Origin: Candidatus Saccharimonadota bacterium
GTDB lineage: Bacteria > Patescibacteriota > Saccharimonadia > Saccharimonadales > UBA4665
Length of the DNA: 64,000 nt
NCBI GenBank assembly: GCA_020427985.1
Contig: JAGQNR010000001.1
Location: 153,784 to 217,783 of the forward strand
Direction of reading: 5' to 3'
Shown one piece after another: positions 1,408-63,876 of this stretch (the first letter of the stretch is position 1; the number at the start of each line of letters is the position of its first letter). The position numbers and the translations under genes are program-made. Under the pieces are notes generated by a model. It made no database searches and was not told the DNA's origin. It saw only the letters and a list, made by a program, of their open reading frames with translations.

Positions 1408-1463
1408 AATTATTTTATAATAGCACAAATATTACAAAAAGTAAAGTATATTTAAAAAAGATA

Positions 1464-1492
1464 TTGAGCAAACAGTGATTTTGCGGTATACT
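1464..1492 (+). promoter_or_regulatory. promoter of rpmF-nusB cluster
   Basis: TTGAGC (1464-1469), 17-base spacer, TATACT (1487-1492). A leader of about 40 bases with a good AAGGAG site precedes rpmF, so this is a conventional leadered transcript. Confidence 0.6.
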
Positions 1493-1536
1493 TGTACCAA
1501 ATAATAACCAAAACTCTAGAAGGAGTTAGTACATAT

Positions 1537-1698
1537 ATGGGTAAACCAAAGAAGCGAACGAGCCCACGCGCTACTGGCGCACGTCGCAGCCACTTGATTG
1601 TTAAGCTGGCACGAGCCGTCAACAAAAAGTCTCCCGTCAAGGCCTATACTACCCGCCGCGAAAGCGGTAAAACACTTGCCGCCAAGGCCGGCAAGTAG
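1537..1698 (+). CDS. rpmF: ribosomal protein bL32-like
   Basis: Very basic 53-residue protein beginning MGKPKKRTSPR, which resembles the start of bL32 of the large ribosomal subunit. The usual C-terminal zinc-ribbon cysteines are absent, so it would be a zinc-independent and rather divergent form. The ATG at 1537 is preceded by AGAAGGAG at good spacing; a more upstream in-frame ATG has no such site. It leads a cluster with nusB and, further on, rnc, and bL32 is often encoded near rnc. Length and basic composition fit a ribosomal protein; the exact family is less certain. Confidence 0.65.
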   Translation: MGKPKKRTSPRATGARRSHLIVKLARAVNKKSPVKAYTTRRESGKTLAAKAGK

Positions 1699-1726
1699 CC
1701 CTTCTTAACAGAGGAGCCTAAAGTCA

Positions 1727-2224
1727 ATGGCTAGTAATCGTCACCTTGGTCGTATTGTTGCACTACAAACGCTCTATGAACAAGACTTTCGCCTAGAATC
1801 AAATGACGAATCGTTTGATCTTGCCGAGGTCTTAAACCGAAATATTGCCCGTTACCAATCAACAGTCGATGACAAAGATTTCATTGTCAATCTTGTTAAT
1901 GGTGTGAGCGAGCGTATTAAACAGCTAGACGCCGAGCTAACCCCCTTGGCACCTGAATGGCCGCTTGACCAAATCGCCCGAATGGACCGCGTTGTACTAC
2001 GTATAGGGCTATATGAACTGCGCCACAACCAAGACGTTCCGCCTAAAGTGGTGATTAACGAAGCAGTCGAACTGGCCAAGGCATTTGGCGGTGACAACAG
2101 TAGCAAGTTTATTAATGGTGTGCTAGGCACTGCCCTAAATGGCAAACGTGCAGTAACCACAGATGATGCTACGATTAATCCAAACGATGAAACCGCTTTG
2201 AGCGACAAAGAAGAGAAAGCATAG
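1727..2224 (+). CDS. nusB: transcription antitermination factor NusB
   Basis: NusB binds boxA RNA with ribosomal protein S10 (NusE) and helps antitermination of rRNA operons. The 165-residue protein has the typical opening [17 protein letters not shown], the central [14 protein letters not shown] segment and the late [20 protein letters not shown] segment, all hallmarks of NusB. A short acidic tail follows. It lies 28 bases after rpmF with a GAGGAG site and is followed five bases later by a NUDIX gene, so the three are likely cotranscribed. Confidence 0.93.
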
Positions 2225-2229
2225 TACCT

Positions 2230-2775
2230 ATGAGCGAACACAAGCACGGGCAGCAATCGGCGCCGAGTAGCAAAGACGGTTTTATCAAAAAGCCGATTGA
2301 AGGGCTGCGTAAATTTGTGCAACGTAAGCCAGCCATCCAAGAAGTCGTGCACGAAACCACCTCGGGCGGCATAGTTTTTCGTCGCAACGACAAGGGTACG
2401 CTCGAAATATTACTCATAAAAGACGCCAAGAACCGCTGGACTATCCCCAAAGGGCACGTAGAAGAAGGCGAAGAGCCAAAAGACACTGCTGAACGTGAAA
2501 TTCGCGAAGAAACTGGCCTACAAGAAATGAAGGTTATGAACTGGTTAGGCAAGGTGAATTTTCGCTATCGTCGTACGCATACGCTGGTGCTCATGACCAT
2601 GCACATATATTTGGTAGAAGGTCTGGGTAACACCAATCGACTGCACCCAGAAGATTGGCTGAGTGACATTCAGTGGCTACCGGCTCATGAGGCGGTCGAT
2701 GCAATAGCCTACGAAGACATTGGTAAACTGATGCTGGTTGGCATGAAGAAAATAAGAGAAGGAAAGGCAAAATAG
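2230..2775 (+). CDS. NUDIX hydrolase
   Basis: Hydrolase of a nucleoside diphosphate linked to another moiety; the substrate cannot be told from sequence. The protein has a basic N-terminal extension of about 40 residues, then a NUDIX domain. The NUDIX box runs from Gly75 to Leu97 with the REIREET core, giving the metal-binding glutamates. It begins five bases after nusB and is probably translated from the same mRNA. The form resembles the diadenosine polyphosphate/decapping-like NUDIX proteins found in many small-genome bacteria, but that is only inference. Confidence 0.85.
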   Translation: MSEHKHGQQSAPSSKDGFIKKPIEGLRKFVQRKPAIQEVVHETTSGGIVFRRNDKGTLEILLIKDAKNRWTIPKGHVEEGEEPKDTAEREIREETGLQEMKVMNWLGKVNFRYRRTHTLVLMTMHIYLVEGLGNTNRLHPEDWLSDIQWLPAHEAVDAIAYEDIGKLMLVGMKKIREGKAK

Positions 2776-2850
2776 TTGGTAGTTTACAGTTTGTAGTTAT
2801 TAGTTACTTGTGACTAAAAACTATAAACTATCCCCTATAAACTAAGCAAT
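2776..2850. repeat. AT-rich intergenic segment with TAGTTTA/TAAACTA inverted repeats
   Basis: Copies of TAGTTTA-like words are followed by TAAACTA-like words, so the spacer between the NUDIX gene and rnc can fold into one or two AT-rich hairpins. A TATAAA (2836-2841) nine bases before the rnc ATG could be its -10 element. No Shine-Dalgarno site precedes rnc. Confidence 0.4.
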
Positions 2851-3543
2851 ATGGACACAACACTGTACCAAGACATAGCGGCTTCTAAACTTGGGGGCAA
2901 TTTTAGCAACCTAGAGCTGCTTATCACTGCATTTACGCACCGTTCGTACTTAAACGAGCACAAAAAATCGGCCAGCGAGCACAATGAACGGCTCGAATTT
3001 TTGGGCGATGCCGTGCTAGAACTGGTAGTAACCGAATATTTGTACACGCACTACAGTGAACCCGAAGGGATTTTAACTAACTGGCGGAGTAGTTTGGTAC
3101 GCACAGAAAGCATTGGTGCTGCGGCAACACGGCTCGGTTTTGAGCCACTGCTACGGCTGAGTCGAGGTGAAAAACGGGGCACCGAAAGGGCACGTGCGCA
3201 GATTCTTGCCAACTGCTTCGAGGCGGTGACAGGTGCGCTGTATCTAGAGCGTGGCTACGATGCTTGCAAAGATTTTATAACCGAAAACATTCTTTCGACC
3301 TTTGACGAAATTCTAAAGACCGGGTCATGGATGGATCCTAAGTCTCGATTGCAAGAAGTCACCCAAAGCCAGGTAGGCGTAACACCAAACTACCGCGTGC
3401 TTACCGAAGACGGCCCAGACCACGAAAAAACGTTCCGTGTTGGTGTTTTCCTGGACGACAAAAAAATAGGCGAAGGCACCGGCCCAAGCAAACAGGCCGC
3501 CCAAGTCGCCGCCGCCACCACTGCGTTGAAAAAGTACGTGTAG
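2851..3543 (+). CDS. rnc: ribonuclease III
   Basis: Double-strand-specific endoribonuclease for rRNA precursor and mRNA processing. The 230-residue protein has the RNase III signature NERLEFLGDAVL (about 45-56) carrying catalytic acidic residues, a second acidic site in the FEAVTGALYLERG segment, and a C-terminal double-stranded RNA-binding domain (about 160-230, ending in GTGPSKQAAQVAAATTALKK). Length is normal for the family. It follows rpmF, nusB and the NUDIX gene and probably has its own AT-rich promoter immediately upstream. Confidence 0.96.
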   Translation: MDTTLYQDIAASKLGGNFSNLELLITAFTHRSYLNEHKKSASEHNERLEFLGDAVLELVVTEYLYTHYSEPEGILTNWRSSLVRTESIGAAATRLGFEPLLRLSRGEKRGTERARAQILANCFEAVTGALYLERGYDACKDFITENILSTFDEILKTGSWMDPKSRLQEVTQSQVGVTPNYRVLTEDGPDHEKTFRVGVFLDDKKIGEGTGPSKQAAQVAAATTALKKYV

Positions 3544-4022: not shown

Positions 4023-4730
4023 TTACGAAATATGTGTAGTTTCCTGAGGAACCCAAACACAGTTAGTAACGTTGTACCCGCGGTCCACCATTCCTTCTAC
4101 GAGGCCGGGAAGGTGATCTGCGCCCCAAAGAAGGGTAAGGTTGGTCGCGGGATTTTTGCCAAGCGTGTTATCTACTGCATTAAGCGCAAAATTTGTGCGT
4201 TCATCACGCAGTATACGCCAGCCTTTTGCGGCCATAATCAAGCCTGCCGCTGCAATCGCAGGGCTTTCATACACTTTGTATCCCCGGCTTGCTTCTTCGA
4301 CTGCTTTAGTTACAATTTCACTGCTAACTCGCCCAAATCTGAGGACAAGGTCGGCACGATTTAAGTCGTGGGGTTGCCAGGTGGCGCGGTACTGTATGCC
4401 TTCTTTGGAGCCCTGTTCAACATACCCGGTTGGCGTTTGGTTTATCGTAAATTTTGCAAGAGATTTGCGCAACCGATGCGTCCGATTTTGTACCCAATCC
4501 GGGTACGTCTTTAGGTTTTGTGGTGAGGGAAACGTACTGTTTTCGTACTGTATCTCAGCCCCTTTGGCGGTTCGTTCATCAAGATGTGATTGTAGAGTGG
4601 CGAAGTATTCTGGAGTGCCAACATGTATCGTGCCAACAATAGTCATATCTCTTGGTAATTTCGAATGGCATAACGTATAAATTGCGCTGTTATCGACAGA
4701 ACCAATACTTTTTGAACCAGGATATTGCAT
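4023..4730 (-). CDS. TraB/TIKI-like (GxxH) family protein
   Basis: 235-residue protein with the two hallmark segments of the TraB/PrgY/TIKI fold: an N-terminal VGTIHVGTPEYF and a C-terminal GADHLPGLVEGM (a GxxH motif). In TIKI proteins these supply metal-binding and catalytic residues of a protease-like domain; bacterial members have been linked to peptide pheromone shutdown, but most are uncharacterised. A hydrophobic stretch in the middle (AIAAAGLIMAAKGW) may touch the membrane. Start set at 4730 because a TATAAT lies seven bases upstream; an ATG at 4784 would put the promoter inside the gene. Divergent from rpsP. Confidence 0.65.
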   Translation of the reverse strand: MQYPGSKSIGSVDNSAIYTLCHSKLPRDMTIVGTIHVGTPEYFATLQSHLDERTAKGAEIQYENSTFPSPQNLKTYPDWVQNRTHRLRKSLAKFTINQTPTGYVEQGSKEGIQYRATWQPHDLNRADLVLRFGRVSSEIVTKAVEEASRGYKVYESPAIAAAGLIMAAKGWRILRDERTNFALNAVDNTLGKNPATNLTLLWGADHLPGLVEGMVDRGYNVTNCVWVPQETTHIS

Positions 4731-4737: not shown

Positions 4738-4743
4738 ATTATA
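4738..4743 (-). promoter_or_regulatory. -10 element, leaderless start of TraB-like gene
   Basis: TATAAT on the minus strand, seven bases before the ATG at 4730 and with no Shine-Dalgarno site, so transcription should begin at or next to the start codon. Confidence 0.6.
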
Positions 4744-13537: not shown

Positions 13538-13543
13538 AGTATA
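13538..13543 (-). promoter_or_regulatory. -10 element near pyrD start
   Basis: TATACT nine bases before the pyrD ATG, no Shine-Dalgarno site; leaderless or nearly so. Confidence 0.5.
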
Positions 13544-16471: not shown

Positions 16472-16477
16472 TACAAT
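16472..16477 (+). promoter_or_regulatory. -10 element, leaderless start of cyclo-ligase gene
   Basis: TACAAT exactly six bases before the ATG at 16484; no Shine-Dalgarno site. Confidence 0.6.
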
Positions 16478-16483: not shown

Positions 16484-16954
16484 ATGAAGCCCAAGTCTCT
16501 AGCGCGTCAGTCACTCTTGCAAAAGCGTACTCAGTTGAGCCTACAGCAAGTGCGCTTGACGAGTCAGCAAATTACACAAAAGCTACTACAGACAATTGAT
16601 TTCGCTCAGTTTAGTCGTATTCACTTATATACCCCCTTAGCTGGTGGTAACGAAGTTGACACTACCATGCTACAGTACGAACTCACTATCCGGTATCCTG
16701 AACTACAGGTCATAATGGGCAGCCCACGACCACAAGCAGCTTTTCCCAAAGGAGATTTTGATGCGGTTTTTACCCCATGTGTGGGTTTTAACAGAGATGG
16801 ATTTCGTCTGGGATTTGGTAATGGCTGGTATGACCGATTTTTATTAGGCCAACCTCAAGCACTTAAAATTGGCTTAGCTTATGCCTGGTCAAAAGTCGAC
16901 TTTGCCCCCGAGCCTCACGACATTCCGCTAGATATGATACTCACTGATGGGTAG
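16484..16954 (+). CDS. 5-formyltetrahydrofolate cyclo-ligase, short form
   Basis: ATP-dependent conversion of 5-formyl-THF to 5,10-methenyl-THF. The C-terminal signature GFRLGFGNGWYDRFL, followed by LAYAWSKVDF and the ending EPHDIPLDMILTDG, is typical of MTHFS/YgfA. The N-terminal helix with LLQKRTQLSLQQ also fits. At 156 residues it is about 30 shorter than usual, lacking the middle segment that normally carries the GI-EP motif. It may be a compact functional form or reduced. It stands just outside the left edge of the copper block. Confidence 0.85.
   Translation: MKPKSLARQSLLQKRTQLSLQQVRLTSQQITQKLLQTIDFAQFSRIHLYTPLAGGNEVDTTMLQYELTIRYPELQVIMGSPRPQAAFPKGDFDAVFTPCVGFNRDGFRLGFGNGWYDRFLLGQPQALKIGLAYAWSKVDFAPEPHDIPLDMILTDG
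16739..16755. repeat. 17-base direct repeat, copy 1
   Basis: GCTTTTCCCAAAGGAGA, inside the cyclo-ligase gene. An identical copy lies at 16986-17002. Confidence 0.8.
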
Positions 16955-19255: not shown

Positions 19256-19750
19256 CTATGCGTGAACGGTTTGAGCAAAGTGCTCTTCGTTCGTTAGTTT
19301 TACACTAGCCTTAAAGGCAGACTCACAGCCACTCGCACAGAAATGATACAATTTACCGTTTTTATCAATGTGCGAAAATGCCTTTGAAGCGCTGAATCGC
19401 ATGCCGCAAACTGGATCAGTGACAATTGGGAATAAGGCATTACTATCAAAGGGTGTATCTATGCGGTGAGTTTTGCGAAGAAAATCATGAATAGATCGAA
19501 TCGCGACCGCAATACTATCATCGGCAAGGGTATAAAAAGATTCGCGCCCTTTCTTGCGTACTTCAACAAGATGCTGTGCACGGAGGAGGGTGAGGTGCTG
19601 TGATAGATTGGCTTGACGGAGGCCTAGCATGTCAGTCATTTCACCAACGTTTAGCTCACGGTGCTCTAGCAAAAGAAGTATCTCAAGTCGTTTTTGATTG
19701 CCAATTAGCTTAAAGATTTCTTCCTGGATAGATAAAATATCACTGCTCAT
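19256..19750 (-). CDS. ArsR-family regulator fused to a YHS domain
   Basis: 164-residue putative metal sensor. Residues 1-95 form an ArsR/SmtB winged helix (NQKRLEILLLLEHRELNVGEMTDMLGLRQANLSQHLTLLRAQ). The C-terminal 55 residues form a YHS domain with DPVCGM, LYHFCASGCESAF, a Cys-rich module found in copper ATPases and metal-binding proteins. The fusion suggests that the YHS part binds metal and the winged helix controls the divergent copper operon and its own DUF305 operon. ATG at 19750 chosen over one at 19786, which would overlap the putative operator. Confidence 0.88.
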   Translation of the reverse strand: MSSDILSIQEEIFKLIGNQKRLEILLLLEHRELNVGEMTDMLGLRQANLSQHLTLLRAQHLVEVRKKGRESFYTLADDSIAVAIRSIHDFLRKTHRIDTPFDSNALFPIVTDPVCGMRFSASKAFSHIDKNGKLYHFCASGCESAFKASVKLTNEEHFAQTVHA

Positions 19751-19761
19751 GCCACTGAGTA

Positions 19762-19800
19762 TAACATAATATACATATATGCGCACTATTGAATATGTTA
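19762..19800. promoter_or_regulatory. candidate operator between ArsR-YHS gene and divergent copper operon
   Basis: Inverted repeat TAACATA (19762-19768) and TATGTTA (19794-19800) flanking a CATATATG palindrome. AT-rich imperfect dyads of this type are usual ArsR-family sites. Position between divergent promoters fits autoregulation. Confidence 0.45.
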
Positions 19801-40447: not shown

Positions 40448-40453
40448 AGTATA
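40448..40453 (-). promoter_or_regulatory. -10 element of CNNM-CBS gene
   Basis: TATACT on the minus strand, 10 bases before the GTG start. Confidence 0.5.
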
Positions 40454-40507: not shown

Positions 40508-40513
40508 TATAAT
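40508..40513 (+). promoter_or_regulatory. -10 element, leaderless start of gene at 40520
   Basis: Consensus TATAAT exactly six bases before the ATG; no Shine-Dalgarno site. Confidence 0.65.
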
Positions 40514-44425: not shown

Positions 44426-44431
44426 TATACT
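44426..44431 (+). promoter_or_regulatory. -10 element, leaderless start of corA
   Basis: TATACT exactly six bases before ATG 44438, with TTGACC about 15 bases further upstream. Confidence 0.65.
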
Positions 44432-45407: not shown

Positions 45408-45413
45408 TATACT
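45408..45413 (+). promoter_or_regulatory. -10 element of DUF475 gene
   Basis: TATACT nine bases before ATG 45423; no Shine-Dalgarno site. Confidence 0.5.
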
Positions 45414-45422: not shown

Positions 45423-46487
45423 ATGAAAAATCTGTTCCATGCTCATTCACCGCTGCGTATTTTTGCCGTTTCTGGGCTGGTGACAATTGCTACGTTGGTG
45501 GGGATTGCACTTGGCATGGGAGCGCACGCGCTGTGGATAGTATTTATTTTAATGATTGTCGAGATAACCTTTAGCTTTGACAATGCCATCATTAACGCCA
45601 AAGTACTTGAGCGACTAAGCCCATTTTGGCAAAAGCTCTTTCTAACCGTCGGTATCGTGATTGCAATTTTTGGTATGCGTGTTGTTTTTCCGATACTGAT
45701 TGTTTCGCTTACTTCGGGACTGAGCTGGGGGCAGGTGATTGACCTAGCACTCAATCACCCAAAGGAGTATGGCCACCATCTAGAAGAGGCTCATCCAATG
45801 ATTTCAGCCTTTGGTGGGGCCTTTTTGCTCATGCTAGCGTTTCAGTTCTTTTTTGATGACGAACGACACACGCTATGGATTAAGCATATAGAGTCAAGGC
45901 TTCAGCGTCTGAGTCACTGGATGTGGGCTCCCACAGTCACGACTATTATTATGTTATGCGTGGCAATGTTGCCGATGAACACCCATGCCCGACAAACTAT
46001 AATTGCCGGCGCACTAGGGACCGCTACGTATGTGGCTATCCAACTGCTCGTACATTGGATGGATAAGCTTCAAGCTAAGGCAGGCGGCAGTTCTAAGAAA
46101 AAACAAGTCGGCATGGCCGCTTTTATGACATTTATGTACCTGCAGATTCTTGATGCCAGTTTTAGCTTTGATGGGGTGATTGGTGCATTTGCTATTTCGA
46201 GTGATATTGTGCTAATTGCGGCGGGGCTGGGAATAGGGGCTATTTGGGTGCGTTCTATGACGGTCTACATGGTGCGACGTGGTACGCTTAACAACTTTGT
46301 TTATCTAGAGCATGGCGCCCATTATACAGTGTTTGTGCTAGCTATTGTTATGCTAGCTAGTGCGCTCCTAGAAATACCTGAAGTTGTACCAGGGTTGACT
46401 GGACTGGGAATTATACTTGCCTCAATCATCGCCTCTGTACGTGTTCGTCAAAAAATCGCCAGTGGCGAGCTTAAAGAACTATCGTAA
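45423..46487 (+). CDS. DUF475 (TerC-superfamily) membrane protein
   Basis: 354 residues, many membrane helices. Two TerC-like motifs: VEITFSFDNAIINAKVL near the N-terminus and LDASFSFDGVIGAFA later; the acidic residues in these helices suggest metal ion transport (Mn2+ or similar in TerC relatives). It follows corA closely and precedes a queuosine precursor transporter by six bases. Confidence 0.85.
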   Translation: MKNLFHAHSPLRIFAVSGLVTIATLVGIALGMGAHALWIVFILMIVEITFSFDNAIINAKVLERLSPFWQKLFLTVGIVIAIFGMRVVFPILIVSLTSGLSWGQVIDLALNHPKEYGHHLEEAHPMISAFGGAFLLMLAFQFFFDDERHTLWIKHIESRLQRLSHWMWAPTVTTIIMLCVAMLPMNTHARQTIIAGALGTATYVAIQLLVHWMDKLQAKAGGSSKKKQVGMAAFMTFMYLQILDASFSFDGVIGAFAISSDIVLIAAGLGIGAIWVRSMTVYMVRRGTLNNFVYLEHGAHYTVFVLAIVMLASALLEIPEVVPGLTGLGIILASIIASVRVRQKIASGELKELS

Positions 46488-48411: not shown

Positions 48412-49443
48412 CTATAAGATTACCATACTGTCACCGTAGGAGAAAAAGTTATAGCGCTTGGCGACGGCGTGCTCGTATGCGGGACGTAGCTTATCCCACC
48501 CCGCAAAGGCAGCTGTCAGCATCAGTACGGTACTTTCTGGCATGTGGAAATTGGTAATCAGTCCCTGAATGGTCTTAAACTGGTAGCCGGGGTAAATAAA
48601 AATATCGGCCTCGCCGCATAGGTCGCGGATATCGCCCTCAAAAATGTCGTCATGCGCATATTCGAGGGTGCGAGTGATGGTAGTGCCGAGGGCAACAATG
48701 CGATTGCCTCTTACCTGGGATTCACGTAACAATCTGACGGTTTCACTTGGGATTTCGTAATACTCTTGATGCATTTTATGCAGAGTAACATCTTTGACTC
48801 GTATAGGTAAGAAGGTGCCAAGCCCTACATGCAGTGTGGCATAGGCGATTTTGACGCCTTTTTGACGTAGTTTTTGCAAGGTAGCTTCGGTCATGTTTAA
48901 ACTGGCTGTGGGCGCTGCTACCGAACCAGCTTCGCGCGCAAAGACGGTCTGGTAGCGCTCTGAGTCTGTCGCGGTAGCCTCGCGCTGCATGTAAGGGGGG
49001 AGCGGTACAGAACCGTGCTCTTCAGCGATGGCTAACAGGTCACGCTCGGCCCGCACGACCGCGATGCCATCGCTCAATATTTCTTCGACATTTATGGTAT
49101 TATTGCCTATCTTTAGCTCATCACCGGCCTTGAGCCGACGACGATAAATGACGCGGTGACGATGCCAATCATCGGCTGGGCCATGTTTTTCGACAAGGAC
49201 GAGTTCTCGCACACCTCCTCCATTACTCTTGTGAGTAATGAGTCGCGCCTTGATAACTTTGGTATCGTTGATAACCAGCACATCGCCTGACTGTAAGTAA
49301 TCAACAATGTCGCCATAAGTCCGGTCGGCTATTTTGCCTGTAGCGCGGTCGAGCGCCAATAGGCGTGCTTCGCCGCGCTCAGCCGGTGGCTGGCTCGCAA
49401 TGAGTTCTTGGGGTATATTGTAGTGGAAATCTGATAGTTGCAT
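48412..49443 (-). CDS. queA: S-adenosylmethionine:tRNA ribosyltransferase-isomerase
   Basis: Adds the epoxycyclopentane ring from SAM to preQ1-tRNA. 343 residues with the family start YNIPQELIASQPPAERGEAR, then HVGLGTFLPI, YEIPSETVRLL and LITNFHMPEST. Complete. Upstream gene of the queA-tgt operon. Final reduction to queuosine (QueG or QueH) is not in the window. Confidence 0.96.
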   Translation of the reverse strand: MQLSDFHYNIPQELIASQPPAERGEARLLALDRATGKIADRTYGDIVDYLQSGDVLVINDTKVIKARLITHKSNGGGVRELVLVEKHGPADDWHRHRVIYRRRLKAGDELKIGNNTINVEEILSDGIAVVRAERDLLAIAEEHGSVPLPPYMQREATATDSERYQTVFAREAGSVAAPTASLNMTEATLQKLRQKGVKIAYATLHVGLGTFLPIRVKDVTLHKMHQEYYEIPSETVRLLRESQVRGNRIVALGTTITRTLEYAHDDIFEGDIRDLCGEADIFIYPGYQFKTIQGLITNFHMPESTVLMLTAAFAGWDKLRPAYEHAVAKRYNFFSYGDSMVIL

Positions 49444-49451: not shown

Positions 49452-49457
49452 AGTATA
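49452..49457 (-). promoter_or_regulatory. -10 element of queA-tgt operon
   Basis: TATACT on the minus strand, eight bases before the queA ATG; no Shine-Dalgarno site. Confidence 0.55.
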
Positions 49458-51275: not shown

Positions 51276-51281
51276 TATACT
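51276..51281 (+). promoter_or_regulatory. -10 element, leaderless start of gene at 51288
   Basis: TATACT exactly six bases before the ATG. Confidence 0.6.
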
Positions 51282-51287: not shown

Positions 51288-52322
51288 ATGACCAAAGAGC
51301 GCTTCTTTATTCGCAACAATGCCGCCCGGGAATATCTGGACTTGTTTTTGGTGGCGGGGGCAACTAGCATATTATTGCTACGGCTCGGCTTGCATCTTGC
51401 TGGCTACCCCAGCATCGGCGGCGCTCGTTATCACGTAGCACATATGTTGTGGGGTGGGCTGGCCATGATGGTGGCGGTTATTATGAATTTTGCATTTTTA
51501 GGCAGACAAGTGCAAAAACTGGTTGCAATACTATCGGGCATAGGCTTTGGGGTGTTTATTGACGAGGTGGGGAAGTTCATTACCCGCGACAACAACTACT
51601 TTTTTCAACCGGCTGTAGGGATAATCTACGCTATATTTGTAGCGCTCTACTTGCTTATTACCTACCTTACTAGAGCACAAAAGCTAACCAGTCAAGAGTA
51701 TCAAGTTAACGCGCTGCGTCAGTTTGAAGAGGCAGTTCGACTAGAAATGGATATACATGAACGAGCCGCAACCAGGCGATTGCTTGCCAATGCGACACAA
51801 GACGATATTACAAAAAAACTGCATGATTTGCTGTACGAGTTGCCGATTGTGCCCCCGAGCAAACAAGGAGCGTTGCGGCAGGTGCGCACAGCAATAGCTC
51901 GGGGGTACGAAAGGTTGTGGCAGGTACGAGAAACACGCAAGCTAGTGCGAGCGTTTTTTATTTTCGAGATTCTCGTATTAACGGTGGCAGTTGTGGCAAC
52001 GCTGTATACCAACATCGATGATGTTACGAAGTTTTTTTCGGGCGCGGCCGATTATGGACATAGTTTAGTGGTAGGACAGTTGGCTTCGACTATGGTGGCA
52101 GGAAGCTGTGTATTAGTGGGGCTACGTTGGCTACGAAGCTCACGCGTGCGTGCGCTGGAATGGTTCAGGCGCGCGACACTTATCAACCTGCTACTGACAG
52201 AGTTCTTCCTCTTTAGCCGCATCCAGCTTGGTGCGGTACCAAGCTTTTTGCTTAACTTACTTTTATTTGCGATACTTGATAGCGTTGCTTCTTATGAACG
52301 ACGCTCTACAGAAGAAGTATGA
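51288..52322 (+). CDS. polytopic membrane protein of unknown function
   Basis: 344 residues. Four helices in the first 130 residues (LDLFLVAGATSILLLRLGL ... GIGFGVFIDEVGKFITRDN), a cytosolic helical middle (about 130-225; QFEEAVRLEMDIHERAATRR), and about four helices at the end. FIDEVGKF in a membrane region is notable. No family recognised. Its end overlaps the convergent hydrolase gene by 31 bases. Confidence 0.65.
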   Translation: MTKERFFIRNNAAREYLDLFLVAGATSILLLRLGLHLAGYPSIGGARYHVAHMLWGGLAMMVAVIMNFAFLGRQVQKLVAILSGIGFGVFIDEVGKFITRDNNYFFQPAVGIIYAIFVALYLLITYLTRAQKLTSQEYQVNALRQFEEAVRLEMDIHERAATRRLLANATQDDITKKLHDLLYELPIVPPSKQGALRQVRTAIARGYERLWQVRETRKLVRAFFIFEILVLTVAVVATLYTNIDDVTKFFSGAADYGHSLVVGQLASTMVAGSCVLVGLRWLRSSRVRALEWFRRATLINLLLTEFFLFSRIQLGAVPSFLLNLLLFAILDSVASYERRSTEEV

Positions 52323-53122
52323 GTAGTCTGCTGTGTAAGGATTTTAGCAACCAGCTTACCATAGCGCTTTGTGAGTTCGTGTGTACCAATAAAATTATGC
52401 AGTCTGGTGTTTGGGTTTGTGCCGAGTAGCTCTACATTAGCATTTATAACAACTTGGTCTAGACTGCCATAAAACACTTCGGTTGGAACGGTAATGGTGG
52501 CAATATCTTCAAGAATTGTTTGTTGCTCGATACAGTGTTGCAGGGTGAGCATAAACGGTACCCAAGTGTCTGGATGCGTAATAACGCGTTTTGGCAGCGG
52601 AAGAATACGGCTCAGTCGTTTGAAAGTTGCGGGTGTCATACGGTCGTTACGCAGTAACTTGTAAACGGTAAGAAGTAGCCCCGTCAACCGTCGGGTGGTG
52701 GGCTTCTTGATGGTATCGAGCTGAGGATATACCGGTGGACTAAGCAAAAACAGGCGAGTAAGATTAGCTTGATGTTCATGGGCGTACCTAGCGGCTAAAA
52801 AGCTACCAAGCGAGTGTCCCATAAGTATAAAATCTTGATTGAGAGTTAGCTTGTTGATGGTATGAAATAGTGAGCTAGTATGTTCTTGCATGGTGTATTC
52901 GCACCACGTGGGCTTAGGGGAGTCGCCAAATCCGAGTAAATCAATTGTTATACAGTAATAATCCTGCTCAAAACTAGGGATGAATGTACTCCAATCATCT
53001 CCACTTGCGGCAATACCATGAATAAAGACTATCGCCGGACGAGTTGGATCGCCATGAAATTCGGTATGAAGGCGGTAAGGACGCTTAAGCGTTTTGTGCC
53101 AAAATGTCTGTAAATCAATCAC
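52292..53122 (-). CDS. alpha/beta-fold hydrolase
   Basis: 276 residues. Oxyanion-hole motif FIHGIAAS, nucleophile elbow GHSLGS, acid in the FYGSLDQVV region and late His in GTHELT complete a catalytic triad. Substrate unknown (esterase or similar). GTG start at 53122 chosen because a TATACT lies seven bases upstream and no ATG is near. Confidence 0.85.
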   Translation of the reverse strand: MIDLQTFWHKTLKRPYRLHTEFHGDPTRPAIVFIHGIAASGDDWSTFIPSFEQDYYCITIDLLGFGDSPKPTWCEYTMQEHTSSLFHTINKLTLNQDFILMGHSLGSFLAARYAHEHQANLTRLFLLSPPVYPQLDTIKKPTTRRLTGLLLTVYKLLRNDRMTPATFKRLSRILPLPKRVITHPDTWVPFMLTLQHCIEQQTILEDIATITVPTEVFYGSLDQVVINANVELLGTNPNTRLHNFIGTHELTKRYGKLVAKILTQQTTHTSSVERRS

Positions 53123-53129: not shown

Positions 53130-53135
53130 AGTATA
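53130..53135 (-). promoter_or_regulatory. -10 element, leaderless GTG start of hydrolase
   Basis: TATACT on the minus strand, seven bases before GTG 53122. Confidence 0.6.
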
Positions 53136-53557: not shown

Positions 53558-53974
53558 TTAGTTATTTTGACAATTTTGGCACTGGCCATGTAGCTCAATT
53601 TGATGCGATGTAAGCCGAAAGTGACGTCTGCTGGCTAGTTCTTGCAGTCGGTCCTCGAGGGTACTGTCCTCTGGCAGGGCAATGCTTGCACCACATGTGT
53701 CGCAGGTAGCATGATGATGATGCTCGTGAAATGCTTCCCCAAGCTCTAAGCGATACTTCCAGCCGTGGGGAATGCGTACTATGATGCCCAGCTGTTCAAA
53801 CAGTTTTACACTTCGATAGACACTTGCTCTGTCTACGTTAGAGCAGCGCCTTGTGAGTTCGCGCATTGAAAGGTTGGCATGGTGAGCAAGAGCATCAAAC
53901 ACCTGCTGACGTGTTCTGGTATGACTTTGATGATGTTTAGCAAGCGTGTGTTCAAATGTTTTTTGGGCGTTCAT
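53558..53974 (-). CDS. Fur-family metalloregulator (Zur/Fur type)
   Basis: 138 residues. Winged helix (RTRQQVFDALAHHANLSMREL ... VDRASVYRSVKLFEQLGII), then the metal region HEHHHHATCDTCG and a final CQNCQNN, giving two Cys pairs for the structural zinc. It stands divergent to a ZIP metal transporter, so Zur-like control of zinc uptake is the simplest reading; Fur or Mur remain possible. Confidence 0.9.
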   Translation of the reverse strand: MNAQKTFEHTLAKHHQSHTRTRQQVFDALAHHANLSMRELTRRCSNVDRASVYRSVKLFEQLGIIVRIPHGWKYRLELGEAFHEHHHHATCDTCGASIALPEDSTLEDRLQELASRRHFRLTSHQIELHGQCQNCQNN

Positions 53975-53980: not shown

Positions 53981-53986
53981 ATTTTA
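53981..53986 (-). promoter_or_regulatory. -10 element, leaderless start of Fur-family gene
   Basis: TAAAAT six bases before ATG 53974, with TTGCAA 18 bases upstream as -35 on the minus strand. Confidence 0.5.
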
Positions 53987-54801: not shown

Positions 54802-54807
54802 TACACT
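54802..54807 (+). promoter_or_regulatory. -10 element, leaderless start of rmuC
   Basis: TACACT exactly six bases before ATG 54814; no Shine-Dalgarno site. Confidence 0.55.
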
Positions 54808-54813: not shown

Positions 54814-55890
54814 ATGGAGATGACAAGTGGACTACTAGGAGTATTAGTGGTGTTGGTAATTGGTCTTATAGTACTGGTGCTTCGCAAACCAAAACCAAGT
54901 AACGAGAGTGCGCTATTGCTCAAGGAAGATTTGCGGGGGCTCAGTGAAGATATTACCCGCCTTAAAGACCACATGCAGGCACAGGTAGCCGATCGTCTCG
55001 ACAAGTCACAGTCCCTCATGATGGGGAGCCTGCAAAAGCAATCGAGCGAAACCAACAAAATTATCACCGAAATCACGCGTAACCTCACTGAGCTTAAAGA
55101 CAGTAATAAGCGAGTGGTCGATGTGGCTGATGAACTTAAAACGTTACAGAACGTTCTTCAAAACCCTAAGCAGCGTGGCGGCCTGGGCGAATACTACCTC
55201 GACACCGTGCTTGGCAATGTACTACCGCCCCACATTTACGAGACACAGTACAAATTTAAAGATGGCGAAATAGTCGACGCCATCATAAAGCTTGACAAGG
55301 GACGCATCCTCCCCATAGACAGCAAATTTAGTCTAGAAAACTACAACCGGCTTGTTGAAGAGAAGGACAAAACGCAGCGTGAAGTGCTGGTCAAGCTTTT
55401 TAAGTCAGACCTCAAAAACCGCATTGACGAAACCAGTAAATACATTCGCCCCCGCGAAAACACCTTAGATTATGCTTTTATGTTTATCCCGAGCGAAGCT
55501 ATATACTACGATTTGCTCGTGAATAACGTGGGCGCCACAGGTACAAACGCTCGCGACCTCATAGAGTATGCTTTTATTGATAAAAAGGTCATCATTGTGA
55601 GTCCGACGACCATGCTGGCCTACCTACAGACCGTGATGCAGGGGCTCAAGAGTCTGCAGATAGAGGAGCAAGCCAAAGACATTCAAAAACGCGTCGGTGA
55701 CCTTGGCAAGCACATCCAGGCACATGAAACCTACATGCAAAAACTTGGCAATGCGCTTGGTACTACTGTTAACCACTATAATGCCGCACATAAAAACCTC
55801 GGCCGTATTGACAAAGACATTGTACGTATCGCCGACACCACAGCCAGCGTTGAACCTCTCTTGCTCGATAAGCCCACCCCCGACGAATAA
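54814..55890 (+). CDS. rmuC: DNA recombination protein RmuC
   Basis: 358 residues: N-terminal membrane helix (LLGVLVVLVIGLIVLVL), coiled coil (about 35-110), and the RmuC nuclease-like domain (RGGLGEYYLDTVLGNVLP ... PIDSKFSLENYNRL ... YAFMFIPSEAIYYDLL), of PD-(D/E)XK type. Limits inversion at short inverted repeats in E. coli. Confidence 0.93.
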   Translation: MEMTSGLLGVLVVLVIGLIVLVLRKPKPSNESALLLKEDLRGLSEDITRLKDHMQAQVADRLDKSQSLMMGSLQKQSSETNKIITEITRNLTELKDSNKRVVDVADELKTLQNVLQNPKQRGGLGEYYLDTVLGNVLPPHIYETQYKFKDGEIVDAIIKLDKGRILPIDSKFSLENYNRLVEEKDKTQREVLVKLFKSDLKNRIDETSKYIRPRENTLDYAFMFIPSEAIYYDLLVNNVGATGTNARDLIEYAFIDKKVIIVSPTTMLAYLQTVMQGLKSLQIEEQAKDIQKRVGDLGKHIQAHETYMQKLGNALGTTVNHYNAAHKNLGRIDKDIVRIADTTASVEPLLLDKPTPDE

Positions 55891-57328: not shown

Positions 57329-58141
57329 CTACAACCACCCAACTGACAAGAGGAGCAAAATAATCATTCCGACCGCAATGCGATAATACGCAAATGGCTT
57401 AAAATTGTGGCGAGCAATATAGCGCAGTAGCCAACTGACTGCCAGGAGAGCTGTTACAAAGGCAGCACCCAGCCCAACGACAATACTCATGTAGCCACCA
57501 GTGATATGAGGTATTTCGGAGCTGTACTTAGCGAGTTTGTAAGCGCTTGCCATTACGAGTACCGGTATGCTCAAATAAAACGAAAATGCGGTGGCGGTTG
57601 GGCGGTTAAGTTTGACGGCAAGCCCACTTACAATGGTCGCGCCACTACGGGATACCCCGGGAATCATAGCGACACACTGACCCAGGCCAATCAGCAGCGC
57701 TTGCCGGTTAGTGATATGCTCTAATGCGACTGCCTCTTGTGCTCTGGCCACTGGTTTGTTGTCAACCGCCCAAAGTATAACCCCACCAATAATGAGCGCC
57801 AGCGCTACCACTAAAGGGGTTGTGATTGCTTCAGATGCTTTGTCAAACAACAGCCCAATTATGCCAGCGGGTATAGTGCCGATGGCTAAAATTTTCCAAA
57901 AATTTACAGCGGCTTTCTCTAGGCGTAATACTCCGACGATTTTTTGCCAAAGATCATGGCGGTAGTACCACACAACAGCCGCAATAGCACCAACTTGAAT
58001 AACTACCGTAAACAAATCGTGTTGATCTTTAAAACCTAGTAACTTTTGTGTGACTATTAAGTGACCAGTACTTGATATGGGTAGGAATTCCGAAATACCT
58101 TCAACAATTCCAAGAATAAGCGCTTGTAACAAATCTATCAT
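57329..58141 (-). CDS. uppP: undecaprenyl-diphosphatase
   Basis: Recycles undecaprenyl pyrophosphate for cell-wall synthesis. 270-residue membrane protein with both active-site motifs: GIVEGISEFLPISSTGHL near the N-terminus and IPGVSRSGATIVSGL in the middle. Complete. A TATACT lies six bases before ATG. Confidence 0.96.
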   Translation of the reverse strand: MIDLLQALILGIVEGISEFLPISSTGHLIVTQKLLGFKDQHDLFTVVIQVGAIAAVVWYYRHDLWQKIVGVLRLEKAAVNFWKILAIGTIPAGIIGLLFDKASEAITTPLVVALALIIGGVILWAVDNKPVARAQEAVALEHITNRQALLIGLGQCVAMIPGVSRSGATIVSGLAVKLNRPTATAFSFYLSIPVLVMASAYKLAKYSSEIPHITGGYMSIVVGLGAAFVTALLAVSWLLRYIARHNFKPFAYYRIAVGMIILLLLSVGWL

Positions 58142-58147: not shown

Positions 58148-58153
58148 AGTATA
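58148..58153 (-). promoter_or_regulatory. -10 element, leaderless start of uppP
   Basis: TATACT on the minus strand, exactly six bases before the ATG at 58141. Confidence 0.65.
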
Positions 58154-58187: not shown

Positions 58188-59555
58188 CTATTTTTGCAAT
58201 AAATCAAGCACGAGTGCTGCTGTCCAGGAGAAGTTATGTGCGCCAAGCGGCTCACCTGTAATAGGGTCAAAATACTCTGCAAAACCACTGAGTCGCACCA
58301 TATCAAGCGTAGTGTCGGTAAGAGCGGCGGCATGGTCTTTGTAGCCGTAGCGCTTTAGCCCATCAATAATCAGCCAGTTGGTATTAACCCAGCTTGGCCC
58401 CTGCCAGTAGCGGTCGGGGTCAAACTGAGAACTACTGAGCGGCACGCTTGGCACGGGAAAGTTGCTGCCAAAACCATGTTCGTTTTCGAGTAATTTAACG
58501 AGTTCGGCTGCACGCTCTTTGGGAATGCAACCGGTGTAAAGTGGCATGAGGGTGGCGATACTCGGTTGTTTGAGTAGGCGATGGGTAATAAAATCTCGCG
58601 ACCAATATTTGCGAGCATAGGGGTCCCAAAGTTGCTCTAAGGCAGTTTCGGTCTTCTGCATGTTGCTGAGCAGCAGCTTGGGGAGCTCAAATCGGGCAGA
58701 TTTGGCTATCTCGCATAGGCGCTGGTTGGCTCGAATGAATAGGCAGTTATAAGTGAGGTCTTCGATGCTAAATAACCCTCGATTGAGAATTTTGGTGGTG
58801 TCATAGGCTTTGCGGCGCAGACGTCTTTGGGCATCAAATAGGCTTAGCACCTCGAGAGTAGAAAACCGCTGGCCTGGTGGTATATAGTGTCGGTCGCGAC
58901 GAAAAGCGCCTATTACTCCATCGAGACGCAGTGTCTGGATGGCGCGTATCCAGCCCGGCATCGAATGCTCGTGCAGTTCGTTCATCCAGGGTGGGGTGTT
59001 GTCGAGTCCGGTTTCCCAGGGGTGTATAAGTAGTACTAGTCCCTCACCATGAGGGTCGCGGTCTTTGTATAACCATTCGTGGTAAGCAATAATCGGTGGG
59101 AGCATTTCTTTGTACCATGTGCGACGCTCGGTGACAGAGAGTTTTTGGCCAATTTGCCAAACTGCTTCTGCAAGCATAGGTGGCTGGGTAATCCCGCTCG
59201 TTGCAACGCCATCAGGTGAGTAAGGGCTTATCCAGCTGCGCCAAAAGGTCCGGTCTCGGTGATACTGGGGGCTACTACTAAATACCATATTTGGAAGCAT
59301 GCCGTTCGACCACTGTCCCTTTATGAGGCTACGCAGCTCGGTTTGAGCTCTGTCGGTATTCATATGACGCAGACCGATAGCAATAAAGCAACTATCCCAT
59401 AACCACTGGTGCGGATAAAGGTTTTCGGCTGGGACAGTATATTCACCTCTGTCGTTTTCACCTAGGATGGCCTTGGCTTCTGCTGCCAAGTCTATAGGGG
59501 TATCTACTGCAGGCTGCTCTGTCGGGGCAGTATCAGTAGCAGTGTGGTAGCTCAT
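58188..59555 (-). CDS. GH63-like (alpha/alpha)6 glycosidase
   Basis: 455 residues. Conserved blocks of the family: YPHQWLWDSCFIAIGL, GQWSNGMLPNMVF, HPWETGLDNTPPW (Asp candidate acid), YWQGPSWVNTNWLI and EYFDPITGEPLGAHNFSWTA (Glu candidate base). Closest by eye to glucosyl- or mannosylglycerate hydrolases and related GH63 enzymes. No signal peptide, so cytosolic; may use compatible solutes. ATG 59555 follows TATACT by nine bases. Confidence 0.82.
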   Translation of the reverse strand: MSYHTATDTAPTEQPAVDTPIDLAAEAKAILGENDRGEYTVPAENLYPHQWLWDSCFIAIGLRHMNTDRAQTELRSLIKGQWSNGMLPNMVFSSSPQYHRDRTFWRSWISPYSPDGVATSGITQPPMLAEAVWQIGQKLSVTERRTWYKEMLPPIIAYHEWLYKDRDPHGEGLVLLIHPWETGLDNTPPWMNELHEHSMPGWIRAIQTLRLDGVIGAFRRDRHYIPPGQRFSTLEVLSLFDAQRRLRRKAYDTTKILNRGLFSIEDLTYNCLFIRANQRLCEIAKSARFELPKLLLSNMQKTETALEQLWDPYARKYWSRDFITHRLLKQPSIATLMPLYTGCIPKERAAELVKLLENEHGFGSNFPVPSVPLSSSQFDPDRYWQGPSWVNTNWLIIDGLKRYGYKDHAAALTDTTLDMVRLSGFAEYFDPITGEPLGAHNFSWTAALVLDLLQK

Positions 59556-59564: not shown

Positions 59565-59570
59565 AGTATA
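59565..59570 (-). promoter_or_regulatory. -10 element of GH63-like gene
   Basis: TATACT on the minus strand, nine bases before the ATG. Confidence 0.5.
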
Positions 59571-61111: not shown

Positions 61112-61609
61112 TTAACGGTAGTTGGTGAAGCTGAGTGGAAAGTCGAGGTCGTCGCGTAATTTGAGAAGCTGCATCACTGCCTGGAGGTCATCTTTACTGC
61201 TACTCATCACGCGTACGGCATCGCCCTGGATTTGGGTTTTAACTTTGGGATAGGTGTCGCGTATAAGCTTGGTAAGCGTCTTGGACTTGTCCTGGTCAAG
61301 GCCGGCCTTAAACAAAACGTCTTTAACGGTCTTTAGGTTGGATTCAATTGCTTCTTTTGAGGTATCGAGTACTTTTTGGCTGATGCCTCTGGTCGAGAGC
61401 TTTTTGCGGTATATATCAAGGATAGCGTCAATCTGCCACTCACCGCTACCAGTTACTTTGATGCCTTTTTTGTCGTCGAGCCAATCAAGCGCTGCGGGGG
61501 TGCCCTTAAAATCATAACGATTGTCGATTTCGCGCTGCGACTGATCAAAAACATTGTTCATTTCGGCTTTGTCGTATTCGGAAACAATATCAAAACTAAA
61601 GTTTGCCAT
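61112..61609 (-). CDS. yajQ: YajQ family nucleotide-binding protein
   Basis: 165 residues, starts MANFSFDIVSEYDKAEMNNV, then YDFKGTPAALDW, LDILDIYR-like central part and the ending IQGDAVRVMSSSKDDLQAVM. Two RNP-like domains; binds nucleotides or c-di-GMP in some species. The ATG at 61609 is supported by the family start and a TATACT seven bases upstream; the upstream in-frame extension is not coding. Confidence 0.93.
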   Translation of the reverse strand: MANFSFDIVSEYDKAEMNNVFDQSQREIDNRYDFKGTPAALDWLDDKKGIKVTGSGEWQIDAILDIYRKKLSTRGISQKVLDTSKEAIESNLKTVKDVLFKAGLDQDKSKTLTKLIRDTYPKVKTQIQGDAVRVMSSSKDDLQAVMQLLKLRDDLDFPLSFTNYR

Positions 61610-61616: not shown

Positions 61617-61622
61617 AGTATA
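61617..61622 (-). promoter_or_regulatory. -10 element, leaderless start of yajQ
   Basis: TATACT on the minus strand, seven bases before the ATG. Confidence 0.6.
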
Positions 61623-61836
61623 ACCCTGTTGTCTAAATGAGTGAAGTGAACAAGGTGATAACCGAGCTTTAGGGGGTTCACTTTGGGGTGCGTTTGCCTC
61701 CTTTTACTACATACATACTAAGGCTAAACTACTGTAGTATTACCCAAAAAATCATTTTCTACCATAAGTATTAAAAAAAGTAAGGTGGATTACATTTTCA
61801 AATACAAATCGTTGGTATATTAGTCCACTAGAAGCT

Positions 61837-62484
61837 ATGAAGATACAAATTGCGCAAAACTTTGCACTCGTTCGGGCCTCAGTAGTGGTGACGGTCTTGT
61901 TGATTGGTGTATGCAGTGCAGTAACACCGGTGCGCGCTGCAGCCGTCGCCCCCCCAGCACAAGACAAGGCTGCCGCCCGTGCTCTCGAAAGAAGTAACAT
62001 ACGTAGCACTCAACAAGCAACTCAAAACACTCGCACCGTCGTGCCTAGTAATCCACGGGCCAACTCAGCTGTAGATGAAGCTCAAGACAAGCAACTCTGC
62101 GTTAATCGTGAGCGTACTCTTAGAAACAAAGTTTCGGCCTACGGCAAAGCTGCCGAAATCCGTCAGAAACAACTCGATGCGAAGCTACAGCGTATTATTG
62201 CCCTAAGCGATAAATACAATCTTAATACGCCAGATATTGATAATCTTATTATTGCAGCCCGACTTGTGAGTAGCCGTGAACTACAGCCGGCTATCGCCAA
62301 TATTCAAAAACTACCCGAAACCGCCCCCATTGACTGCAGCTCGCCATCGGTTGCGACTTCGCTTTCTGCTATTAAAGTTACCACCAACGAGACAAAAGAC
62401 GCACTCAACGAATATCGCCAATCAATTAAGGCAATTGCCCTTGCTCTACAGAATAAAATTAGTCAGCAGGCAAGCCAGCGCTAA
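61837..62484 (+). CDS. secreted coiled-coil protein
   Basis: 215 residues: signal peptide (VVVTVLLIGVCSAVTPVRAA), Ala/Gln/Thr-rich linker, then long helices (RERTLRNKVSAYGKAAEIRQKQLDAKLQRI ... NETKDALNEYRQSIKAIALAL). Two Cys (QLCVNRE, IDCSSP) may pair. No enzyme motif. Followed two bases later by a small membrane protein; likely partners. Confidence 0.65.
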   Translation: MKIQIAQNFALVRASVVVTVLLIGVCSAVTPVRAAAVAPPAQDKAAARALERSNIRSTQQATQNTRTVVPSNPRANSAVDEAQDKQLCVNRERTLRNKVSAYGKAAEIRQKQLDAKLQRIIALSDKYNLNTPDIDNLIIAARLVSSRELQPAIANIQKLPETAPIDCSSPSVATSLSAIKVTTNETKDALNEYRQSIKAIALALQNKISQQASQR

Positions 62485-62486
62485 GC

Positions 62487-62768
62487 ATGATTAAAAAAAC
62501 TACAAAAAGTACAACTCAGCAAAAATCTATAGAACGCACTATTGGGGTAGCACTGTGGCTCTTCGGAGCGGTGCTGCTTGTAGCAGTTATAGCGACTATC
62601 TTGGGTATTTCAAAATCCAATCGTAACGCTGCTATGACTCCGGCTCAAATGCAAGAAAGCCGTGCAACTATCGAATCAGAAGCTCACGCACTTGATGCTG
62701 AGGGTGCAGAGATTGATAAAACACTCAATACCACAGAATTTGATGTTAGCGCCGACATGCTCCAGTAA
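62487..62768 (+). CDS. small single-span membrane protein
   Basis: 93 residues: basic start, one helix (GVALWLFGAVLLVAVIATILG), then an acidic outer helix (MQESRATIESEAHALDAEGAEIDK). No domain recognised. Directly after the secreted coiled-coil gene. Confidence 0.6.
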   Translation: MIKKTTKSTTQQKSIERTIGVALWLFGAVLLVAVIATILGISKSNRNAAMTPAQMQESRATIESEAHALDAEGAEIDKTLNTTEFDVSADMLQ

Positions 62769-62807
62769 ATAGCATTTGGCAGGGTATGACACCAGAGTGC
62801 GAAATGG

Positions 62808-62813
62808 TATACT
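62808..62813 (+). promoter_or_regulatory. -10 element of pheS
   Basis: TATACT 10 bases before ATG 62824; no Shine-Dalgarno site. Confidence 0.5.
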
Positions 62814-62823
62814 TTTTAGTAGT

Positions 62824-63876
62824 ATGACTTATCAAAATCCCGCCATTGCCGAAGCCGCAACAGTGCTCCGTGAACGCTTAGCATCACTCCAAGACAAACA
62901 ATCGATCTTGCGGGCCCCCGAACTCGCCGTTTTATATCAAACAATTCGTACATTAGAGTCCGGACAGCGGAGAGCCTTTGGCAAGGAGCTTAATAGTCTC
63001 AAATCTGAGCTGCAAGCGCTGATTGATGCCCAGTCAGTGGTCACCGACAATCGAATACCGATAGATGTTACCTCTCCGATTGACAGCAACGCGGAGTTTG
63101 CAAAATTACTTCCAGCAAATCAAGGAAGTACCCACCCTATTACGAGCGAAATTAACCGTATTATTGCCATTTTTGAACGGATGGGGTTCAGTGCCGAGGA
63201 ATCGCGTGAAATCGATGACCAATACAATATGTTTGAGTCACTCAATTTCCCCAAAGGCCACCCCGCACGGGACGAATATGACACCTTTATGACGGTCGAA
63301 ACCGATACAAACGGTGACCAGTTTATTGCGCCGGCTCATACCAGTACCATGCAAAATCGGACTCTCCGTCGCTATAAAGCTTCGTTGGAGCAGGGCGACC
63401 CAATCGCTGTCATAGTGCCAGACAGGGTATTTAGGAACGAAGACCTCGACGCTCGTCATGAACACACGTTTTACCAGCTCGAGGGAGTATATGTGTCCAA
63501 GGGCGTCCATGCTGGTATGCTCATTGCTACGCTGCAAAAGTTTCTTGAGGAATACTACGGTAAACAACTGCAAGTGCAAGTAAACCCCTATTACTTTCCG
63601 TTTACTGAACCAAGTTTTGAATTTGCATTGAGTTGTCCGTTTTGTGAGCAAAATGACCCAGCCTGCAAAGTTTGTAGCGGCGAGGGGTGGATAGAACTAC
63701 TTGGCTGTGGCATGATTCACCCAAATGTGCTGAATGCGGCCGGTATTGACCCCAGTGTGTATACCGGGTTTGCGTTTGGCTGTGGCATTGACCGCTTAGT
63801 AATGATGAAATACGGCATCGAAGACGTTCGGCATTTTGAGTCGGCAAAGTTAGATTTTTTGAGGCAATTTTCATGA
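62824..63876 (+). CDS. pheS: phenylalanyl-tRNA synthetase alpha subunit
   Basis: 350 residues: N-terminal coiled coil (about 1-75), class II motif 2 region and the ending GFAFGCGIDRLVMMKYGI (motif 3). Contains ARDEYDTF, FYQLEGVYVSKGVH, FPFTEPSFEF and a CxxC...CxxC insert before GWIELLGCGMIHP, also present in many bacterial PheS. ATG 62824 gives the family start. The stop overlaps the next gene by four bases. pheT is not the next gene. Confidence 0.95.
   Translation: MTYQNPAIAEAATVLRERLASLQDKQSILRAPELAVLYQTIRTLESGQRRAFGKELNSLKSELQALIDAQSVVTDNRIPIDVTSPIDSNAEFAKLLPANQGSTHPITSEINRIIAIFERMGFSAEESREIDDQYNMFESLNFPKGHPARDEYDTFMTVETDTNGDQFIAPAHTSTMQNRTLRRYKASLEQGDPIAVIVPDRVFRNEDLDARHEHTFYQLEGVYVSKGVHAGMLIATLQKFLEEYYGKQLQVQVNPYYFPFTEPSFEFALSCPFCEQNDPACKVCSGEGWIELLGCGMIHPNVLNAAGIDPSVYTGFAFGCGIDRLVMMKYGIEDVRHFESAKLDFLRQFS

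Follow-up and report, generated by a model that had tools for sequence, protein, structure and literature searches.

A 64-kb stretch of DNA from a Candidatus Saccharimonadota bacterium (positions 153784-217783 of its contig; this whole stretch is here called the window) contains many genes that lack a Shine-Dalgarno (SD) site and carry a TATACT- or TATAAT-like hexamer a few bases before the start codon. Is this box a promoter that places the beginning of the transcript on the start codon, a signal for the ribosome, or an accident of base composition? The answer favored here, with a probability of about 0.9, is that the box is a housekeeping sigma-70 -10 element that gives rise to leaderless mRNAs alongside SD-led operon genes. 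With the -10 element so placed, transcription would begin on the start codon or no more than about 5 nt away from it. Leaderless mRNAs would then come from roughly a fifth to a third of genes, mostly heads of transcription units; ribosomes would presumably engage the 5'-terminal AUG or GUG of these mRNAs, and operon-internal genes would mostly rely on normal SD pairing with an intact anti-SD sequence.

The window belongs to a metagenome-assembled genome (MAG) of 978,274 bases in 45 contigs, 97.6% complete, whose RarA is 77% identical to that of a Candidatus Saccharibacteria record. Together with 20 stretches of 20 kb from the same MAG, it makes up 464 kb and 394 genes (59 in the window and 335 outside), with starts set by dicodon coding potential and upstream signals ignored. 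Five hexamers (TATACT, TATAAT, TACACT, TACAAT and TATTAT) were scored as boxes, and the gap is the number of bases between hexamer and start codon. At gaps 6-11, 84 boxes are present against 8.1 expected (Poisson p 1.5e-54), gaps 0-5 hold 5, and a five-variant box stands at the coding-potential start of 83 of the 394 genes. The window contributes 19 boxes at gaps 6-11, where the frequency at gaps 14-45 would predict 1.7, and one at gaps 0-5; the remaining stretches contribute 65 against 6.4 (Poisson p 4.5e-42). TATACT and TATAAT alone occur 1, 0, 0, 0, 0, 0, 16, 13, 10, 4, 6, 3 and 1 times at gaps 0-12. A cruder rule, the first ATG of each of 199 open reading frames (ORFs) of at least 250 amino acids, returns 16, 14, 11, 6, 4 and 4 boxes at gaps 6-11 and 1, 0, 0, 0, 0 and 0 at gaps 0-5.

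An origin of this pattern in chance or AT-rich composition could appeal to the AT-rich upstream regions and to a slight excess in outgroup genomes. Four permuted hexamers, however, are flat, with 0-2 occurrences at each gap. In outgroup loci, where an ORF of at least 100 amino acids was required, gaps 6 and 7 hold 5 and 2 boxes (Bacillota-type) or 3 and 5 (other phyla), which is no peak comparable to the 26 and 16 of the 20 nearest rarA loci. These controls, along with the two Poisson values, refute compositional chance, whose probability is negligible. In-frame internal ATGs (n=2,033) have no phase either, with 0 and 1 boxes at gaps 6 and 7. When upstream hexamers were ranked without a seed, AAGGAG came first and TATACT second; those that followed were mostly overlaps or variants of these two, and a few (for example GGTACA and TGCTAT) extend into an extended -10.

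A second assignment of gene starts and classes came from an expectation-maximization (EM) model that used upstream motifs, with boxes of at least 6 bits counted as strong. Four runs seeded with unrelated hexamers all converged on the same box, offset by one to three bases. At the starts chosen by this model, strong boxes number 46, 33, 16, 8, 7 and 6 at gaps 6-11 (116 together) and fall to background level at gaps 12-19 (1, 1, 0, 2, 2, 2, 0 and 0), which suggests that leaders measure about 0-5 nt or else are clearly longer.

The surroundings of the box resemble a promoter. Alignment of 133 box-led genes reveals an extended -10, TGG-TATACT-A, in which each TGG base at offsets -3 to -1 is present in 53-58% of genes, and T occupies the first -35 position (offset -23) in 54%. 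About 8 of 19 tRNA genes have a similar box no more than 50 bases upstream, as judged by eye and without a chance comparison. An alternative sigma factor was judged unlikely, as a single sigma-70 region-2 match was found in the 97.6% complete MAG. In sigma-70 promoters the -10 hexamer ends at -7; a gap of 6 therefore makes the start codon begin at +1, and the sharp edge at this gap is what one expects if the start codon cannot precede +1. Gaps 6-8 would fit leaders of zero nt, and gaps 9-11 leaders of zero to a few nt. The base before the start codon is a pyrimidine in 67 of 83 genes with gaps 6-7, compared with 107 of 176 SD-class genes (p=0.0017), and a pyrimidine-purine step is typical of transcription start sites (TSSs). 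Very short leaders of 1-5 nt, with initiation on a short leader instead of none, are an alternative with some support: +1 can fall 6-9 nt after a -10 box, and 21 of the 116 strong boxes lie at gaps 9-11. The modal gap of 6, however, leaves no room for a leader, and at gaps 6-7 the pyrimidine-purine step falls on the start codon itself. We consider short leaders unlikely, though by no means negligible.

Box-led and SD-led genes, as classed by the EM model, differ in both signal and position. An SD 4-mer is found in 3 of 135 boxed genes and 122 of 176 SD-class genes, the latter having an AAGGAG-like site mostly at gaps 5-8. The box leads 60 of 106 genes behind a divergent neighbor, as opposed to 11 of 93 same-strand genes within 15 bp (p=2e-11). 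The original prediction held that boxed genes lack an SD site and that operon-internal genes have strong ones, which is valid statistically; the exceptions are the 11 close same-strand genes that are box-led and 42 of the 106 genes with a divergent neighbor that are SD-led. Its description of a coherent two-mode system agrees with two leading de novo motifs, two gap distributions and two gene contexts. Loss of the anti-SD sequence was rejected as a cause: CCTCC is intact in 11 of 12 16S loci of relatives, and the twelfth locus ends at a contig edge; the source MAG has no 16S. Ribosomal protein S1 is present in a short form that covers positions 14-346 of the 516-position rpsA model and scores under its cut-off. 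This short S1-like protein, and the AU-rich bias before starts that has been discussed for some phyla as possible S1 sites (in part of PMC5397173), could favor a box that acts in translation, as an AU-rich S1 site or enhancer. Promoters, however, better accommodate the extended -10 and -35 features, the gene context, the sharp edge at gap 6 and the symmetric double use described below, and a translation signal is exceedingly improbable.

If the predicted starts were mis-chosen and the true start codons lay further downstream, the boxes could belong to ordinary promoters that give short leaders. The starts are indeed predicted and not measured, but several features oppose this explanation and make it very improbable. 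Pfam domains begin near the predicted N-terminus of several box-led proteins (AA_kinase at residue 3, D-Ala ligase N at 4, DUF520 at 5), SD sites are rare in box-led genes, alignments of TsaD begin at residue 1 or 2 for most genomes, and the majority of rarA starts fall within a few codons of one another. The upstream regions of these two genes also preserve the box. For rarA, the window and the 20 nearest loci (by record title 14 Saccharibacteria or Saccharimonadales, 5 'bacterium' and 1 Chloroflexi) were compared, with one in-frame start picked per site: TAnnnT occurs at gaps 6-11 in 19 of the 21 sites, 17 of them exact TATAMT, and is absent from L027 and L033, whereas five control windows further upstream hold TAnnnT in 2-4 of 21 sites and exact matches in 0-1. 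For tsaD, 28 of 30 loci have TAnnnT at these gaps, 12 exactly (none in L167 and L189), against 4-9 of 30 and 0-1 in control windows. The locus titled Chloroflexi bacterium (L028) encodes a RarA 68% identical to that of the source genome and has the same box phase; the contig may belong to Saccharibacteria.

Beyond close relatives, the phase is weaker but widespread. Genome-wide counts of TATAMT followed by ATG, made without a check that a gene follows, are higher at gaps 6-7 than at gaps 2-3 in 185 of 192 Patescibacteria genomes, individually at p<0.01 in 143, with a median ratio of 2.4. Pooled, the six nearest-relative genomes (those behind near rarA loci, five titled Saccharibacteria or Saccharimonadales and one 'bacterium') have a ratio of 3.95. 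A Shapirobacteria genome, also of the Patescibacteria and outside both pools, has 32 sites against 1. The ratio is at most 1.5 in 21 of 96 families of the phylum. Distant phylum members vary: one (G092) yields TATAAT with a peak at gap 6, and two others (G223 and G205, 47 kb together, of which G223 provides 7 kb) have 1, 1, 2, 0 and 3 boxes at gaps 6-10 and none at gaps 0-5. Genome-wide positional enrichment of the hexamer, whose absence would have refuted the original prediction, is present: phasing to the start codon drops off sharply below gap 6 across the 464 kb and recurs in the nearest relatives and, as bare pattern counts, in most of the 192 genomes.

Several points weigh against the leaderless interpretation. 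In the comparisons of SD sites, gene context, -35 elements and pyrimidines, class and start were assigned by an EM model that itself used the motifs, so the gene-context contrast is the more independent part. Applied to three shuffled sets of upstream regions, the same model returned box fractions of 0.32-0.50, with little positional focus and likelihoods of 34,161-34,177 against 34,591 for the real set; such fractions are thus no evidence alone, and the mixture fraction was dropped as an estimate of the leaderless share in favor of background-corrected strict counts. The -35 element is weakly marked: allowing up to one mismatch, TTGACA is most frequent at a spacer of 17, in only 8 of the 133 genes. 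Gaps 9-11 permit leaders of a few nt, and the pyrimidine frequency at gaps 8-11 (27 of 38) is indistinguishable from that at gaps 6-7 (p=0.25). Among the 192 phylum genomes, the excess is non-significant at p<0.01 in 49 and absent in 7, and the 16 genomes of other phyla are not wholly flat, with a pooled ratio of 1.31 and single values of 0.89-3.0 (the latter being 3 sites against 1). In the distant genome G090 (127 genes), the EM model missed the box, and the 7 boxes at gap 6 are accompanied by 2, 1 and 3 at gaps 2-4. Phasing, promoter-like features, SD absence, gene context and conservation can be read directly from the DNA; the position of +1, the use of sigma-70 and the mechanism of translation are what we infer from them.

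The most compact use of the box is found between divergent genes. Box-led pairs with 14-22 bp between start codons and overlapping -10s were found at L008, in the source genome itself, and at L037, L038 and L039. Another pair of the source genome (L193, C32:80095/80119) has 23 bp between starts, arranged as CAT GTCTGTTCT AGTATACT AATTTT ATG, so that a PP-loop gene, which we take to be TilS-like, and a Ham1-like gene diverge from one AGTATACT. The shared symmetric -10 has the form AnTATAnT and is most often AGTATACT. Across the order, CATN6-7 AKTATAMT N6-7 ATG matches 105 sites in 83 of 294 genomes, compared with 28 sites in 26 genomes for the reversed pattern. For 30 of the 83 genomes, the locus of one site was retrieved; ORFs of at least 80 amino acids run in both directions at 16, and the 14 without two-way ORFs may be chance. 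Recurring pairs among the 16 are tsaD/Mur ligase (4), yajQ/PAP2 (3) and rarA/ddl (2), named by Pfam in two, two and one loci, respectively, and linked by BLAST in the rest. All four tsaD/Mur ligase sites read CAT N7 AGTATACT N7 ATG, with 23 bp from start to start.

A Mur ligase diverges from tsaD in 24 of the 30 tsaD loci. Both genes share the symmetric core in six of these 24 (five by a tighter cut), with 22-31 bp between starts, and three of the six are from genomes already counted among the fetched sites; in ten other loci the genes are separated by 54-220 bp, and in eight by 585-1,084 bp. The core also occurs in 7 of 74 divergent pairs against 0 of 599 outgroup pairs with ORFs of at least 150 amino acids, and because this filter admitted many shadow ORFs, only the symmetric-core count is informative and the rest of this control comparison for shared -10s was discarded. 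Pairs with 14-23 bp between starts are putative bidirectional, doubly leaderless promoters, as far as their layout indicates. One symmetric -10 of about 8 bp would be the entire intergenic signal for two divergent genes, as in tsaD/Mur ligase, TilS-like/Ham1-like, rarA/ddl and yajQ/PAP2. With one such -10 between two genes in leaderless phase, each -35 would lie inside the coding sequence of the other gene, and expression of the two would be coupled by competition for one RNA polymerase site. The joint interpretation, in which an old, phylum-wide leaderless mode has as its extreme form a bidirectional doubly leaderless promoter with competition-coupled expression, is moderately probable.

Within the window, 22 of the 23 genes named in the original prediction have the box at the gap given there; its 'TraB-like' gene at gap 7 could not be placed. 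A candidate for the latter is the gene at 4730..4023 on the reverse strand (posterior 0.69), which lacks a Pfam match at E 0.001 and follows TATAAT at 4738..4743 (gap 7). The earlier remark that boxes correct gene starts also fits, as the automatic caller put pyrD at another start and omitted csoR and the ORF at 32294. On the forward strand, gap 6 separates TACAAT (16472..16477) from 5-formyltetrahydrofolate cyclo-ligase (16484..16954), TATAAT (40508..40513) from the gene at 40520..41170, TATACT from corA (44426..44431; 44438..45364) and from the gene at 51288..52322 (box 51276..51281), and TACACT (54802..54807) from rmuC (54814..55890); the genes at 40520 and 51288 have no Pfam match at 1e-5. 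Reverse-strand boxes with this gap are TATAAT (32301..32306) before a 121-amino-acid ORF starting at 32294, TATACT (58148..58153) before uppP/bacA (58141..57329) and a weak TAAAAT of 5.0 bits (53981..53986) before the gene at 53974..53558, for which fur-like is the earlier label only. The csoR-like gene (25836..26120, forward) is likewise preceded by TACAAT at gap 6 (25824..25829). A CsoR-box-like inverted repeat, ATACCCCCAGGGGGTAT, read from the sequence at 25810-25835, abuts and partly overlaps this -10.

Gap 7 is found on the forward strand for TATTAT (35712..35717), before a Hypoth_ymh (PF09509) gene at 35725..36369 earlier labeled TIGR02391, and for a weaker TAAACT (2838..2843) before an RNase III gene (2851..3543). 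On the reverse strand, TATACT has this gap before an ArsR/YHS gene (box 19758..19763; gene 19750..19256), an ABC ATPase gene (34567..34572; 34559..33663), an alpha/beta hydrolase gene with a GTG start (53130..53135; 53122..52292), yajQ/DUF520 (61617..61622; 61609..61112) and rarA (37555..37560; 37547..36366), whose phase is kept in orthologues. Upstream of the rarA -10, at 37566-37614, seven perfect copies of the 7-bp tandem repeat TTAAGAG span the expected -35. At gap 8, TATACT precedes queA (49452..49457; 49443..48412) and a NUDIX gene (35077..35082; 35068..34565), both on the reverse strand, the latter diverging from maf (35108..35662, forward), which has TACAAT at gap 6 (35096..35101). The NUDIX and maf start codons (35068-35108) are 39 bp apart, and each gene has its own outward-facing -10 box in between, which would make each -35 overlap the opposing promoter. 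Gap 9 is used on the reverse strand by TATTAT (1417..1422) before the gene at 1407..883, which has no Pfam match at 0.001, and by TATACT before an MGH1/GH63-like glycosidase (59565..59570; 59555..58188) and before the pyrD start at 13528 (13538..13543), where the EM model chose 13375 with a weak box; TATACT precedes a DUF475/TerC gene (45408..45413; 45423..46487) at this gap on the forward strand. At gap 10, TATACT stands before a CNNM gene with a GTG start (40448..40453; 40437..39451, reverse) and before pheS (62808..62813; 62824..63876, forward).

Software calls the gene starts of Patescibacteria, a very large phylum of mostly uncultured bacteria. Should a fifth to a third of genes be leaderless, the box and not the SD site is what many annotated starts require to be correct, and expression constructs for the few Saccharibacteria in culture must be designed around the box. 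The apparent leaderless genes and seemingly shared boxes in a tiny genome show how compact gene control can become. Doubly leaderless shared promoters, if true, would be near the lower size limit of a two-gene control region, and they would allow the coexistence of leaderless starts, RNA polymerase competition and coding constraint to be tested directly.

Among the matches listed, no description of a leaderless mode in Saccharibacteria or Patescibacteria was found in the open-access literature. The relevant part of PMC7441243 merely cites GeneMarkS-2, and 'leaderless' in the corresponding part of PMC6851277 refers to protein secretion. The pertinent lines of PMC12641178, a paper about candidate phyla radiation ribosome biogenesis, point to other work in which YchF, a broadly conserved protein, promotes translation of leaderless mRNA. 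The single-gene mode is the known bacterial leaderless mode and is not unique to this organism, although no earlier description was found for the phylum. Zheng et al. (2011; PMC3160421) report, in the portion considered here, TA-led leaderless genes, in which a TANNNT hexamer resembling a -10 lies about 12 bp ahead of the start codon; such genes exceed 20% of the total in Actinobacteria and Deinococcus-Thermus. The present genes share the position of this box and the mixture with SD-led genes, but they differ in phylum, in a TATACT consensus with an extended TGG, and in belonging to an ultra-small genome where a single sigma-70 match was found.

If real, the promoter shared by two leaderless genes would be new. 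In the bidirectional promoters studied by Warman, Grainger and colleagues (PMC12825309, in part), overlapping symmetric -10s likewise serve two divergent start sites, with a commonest TSS separation of 18 bp and with 10 and 23 bp also frequent, the last matching the start distance of the tsaD/Mur ligase pairs. Here, in contrast, both presumed TSSs are start codons, with first bases 15-24 bp apart, so no 5' untranslated region would exist on either side. The nearest precedent found is the csoR-cueA divergon of Bradyrhizobium liaoningense, in which, according to the relevant portion of PMC5057107, csoR is leaderless, its TSS having been mapped to the start codon. The csoR-like gene of the window, in leaderless phase and with a CsoR-box-like repeat, resembles that csoR. 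The divergon also has partly overlapping -10s, as do the pairs described here, but its cueA TSS lies 42 nt upstream of the start codon, and it is a single regulated case.

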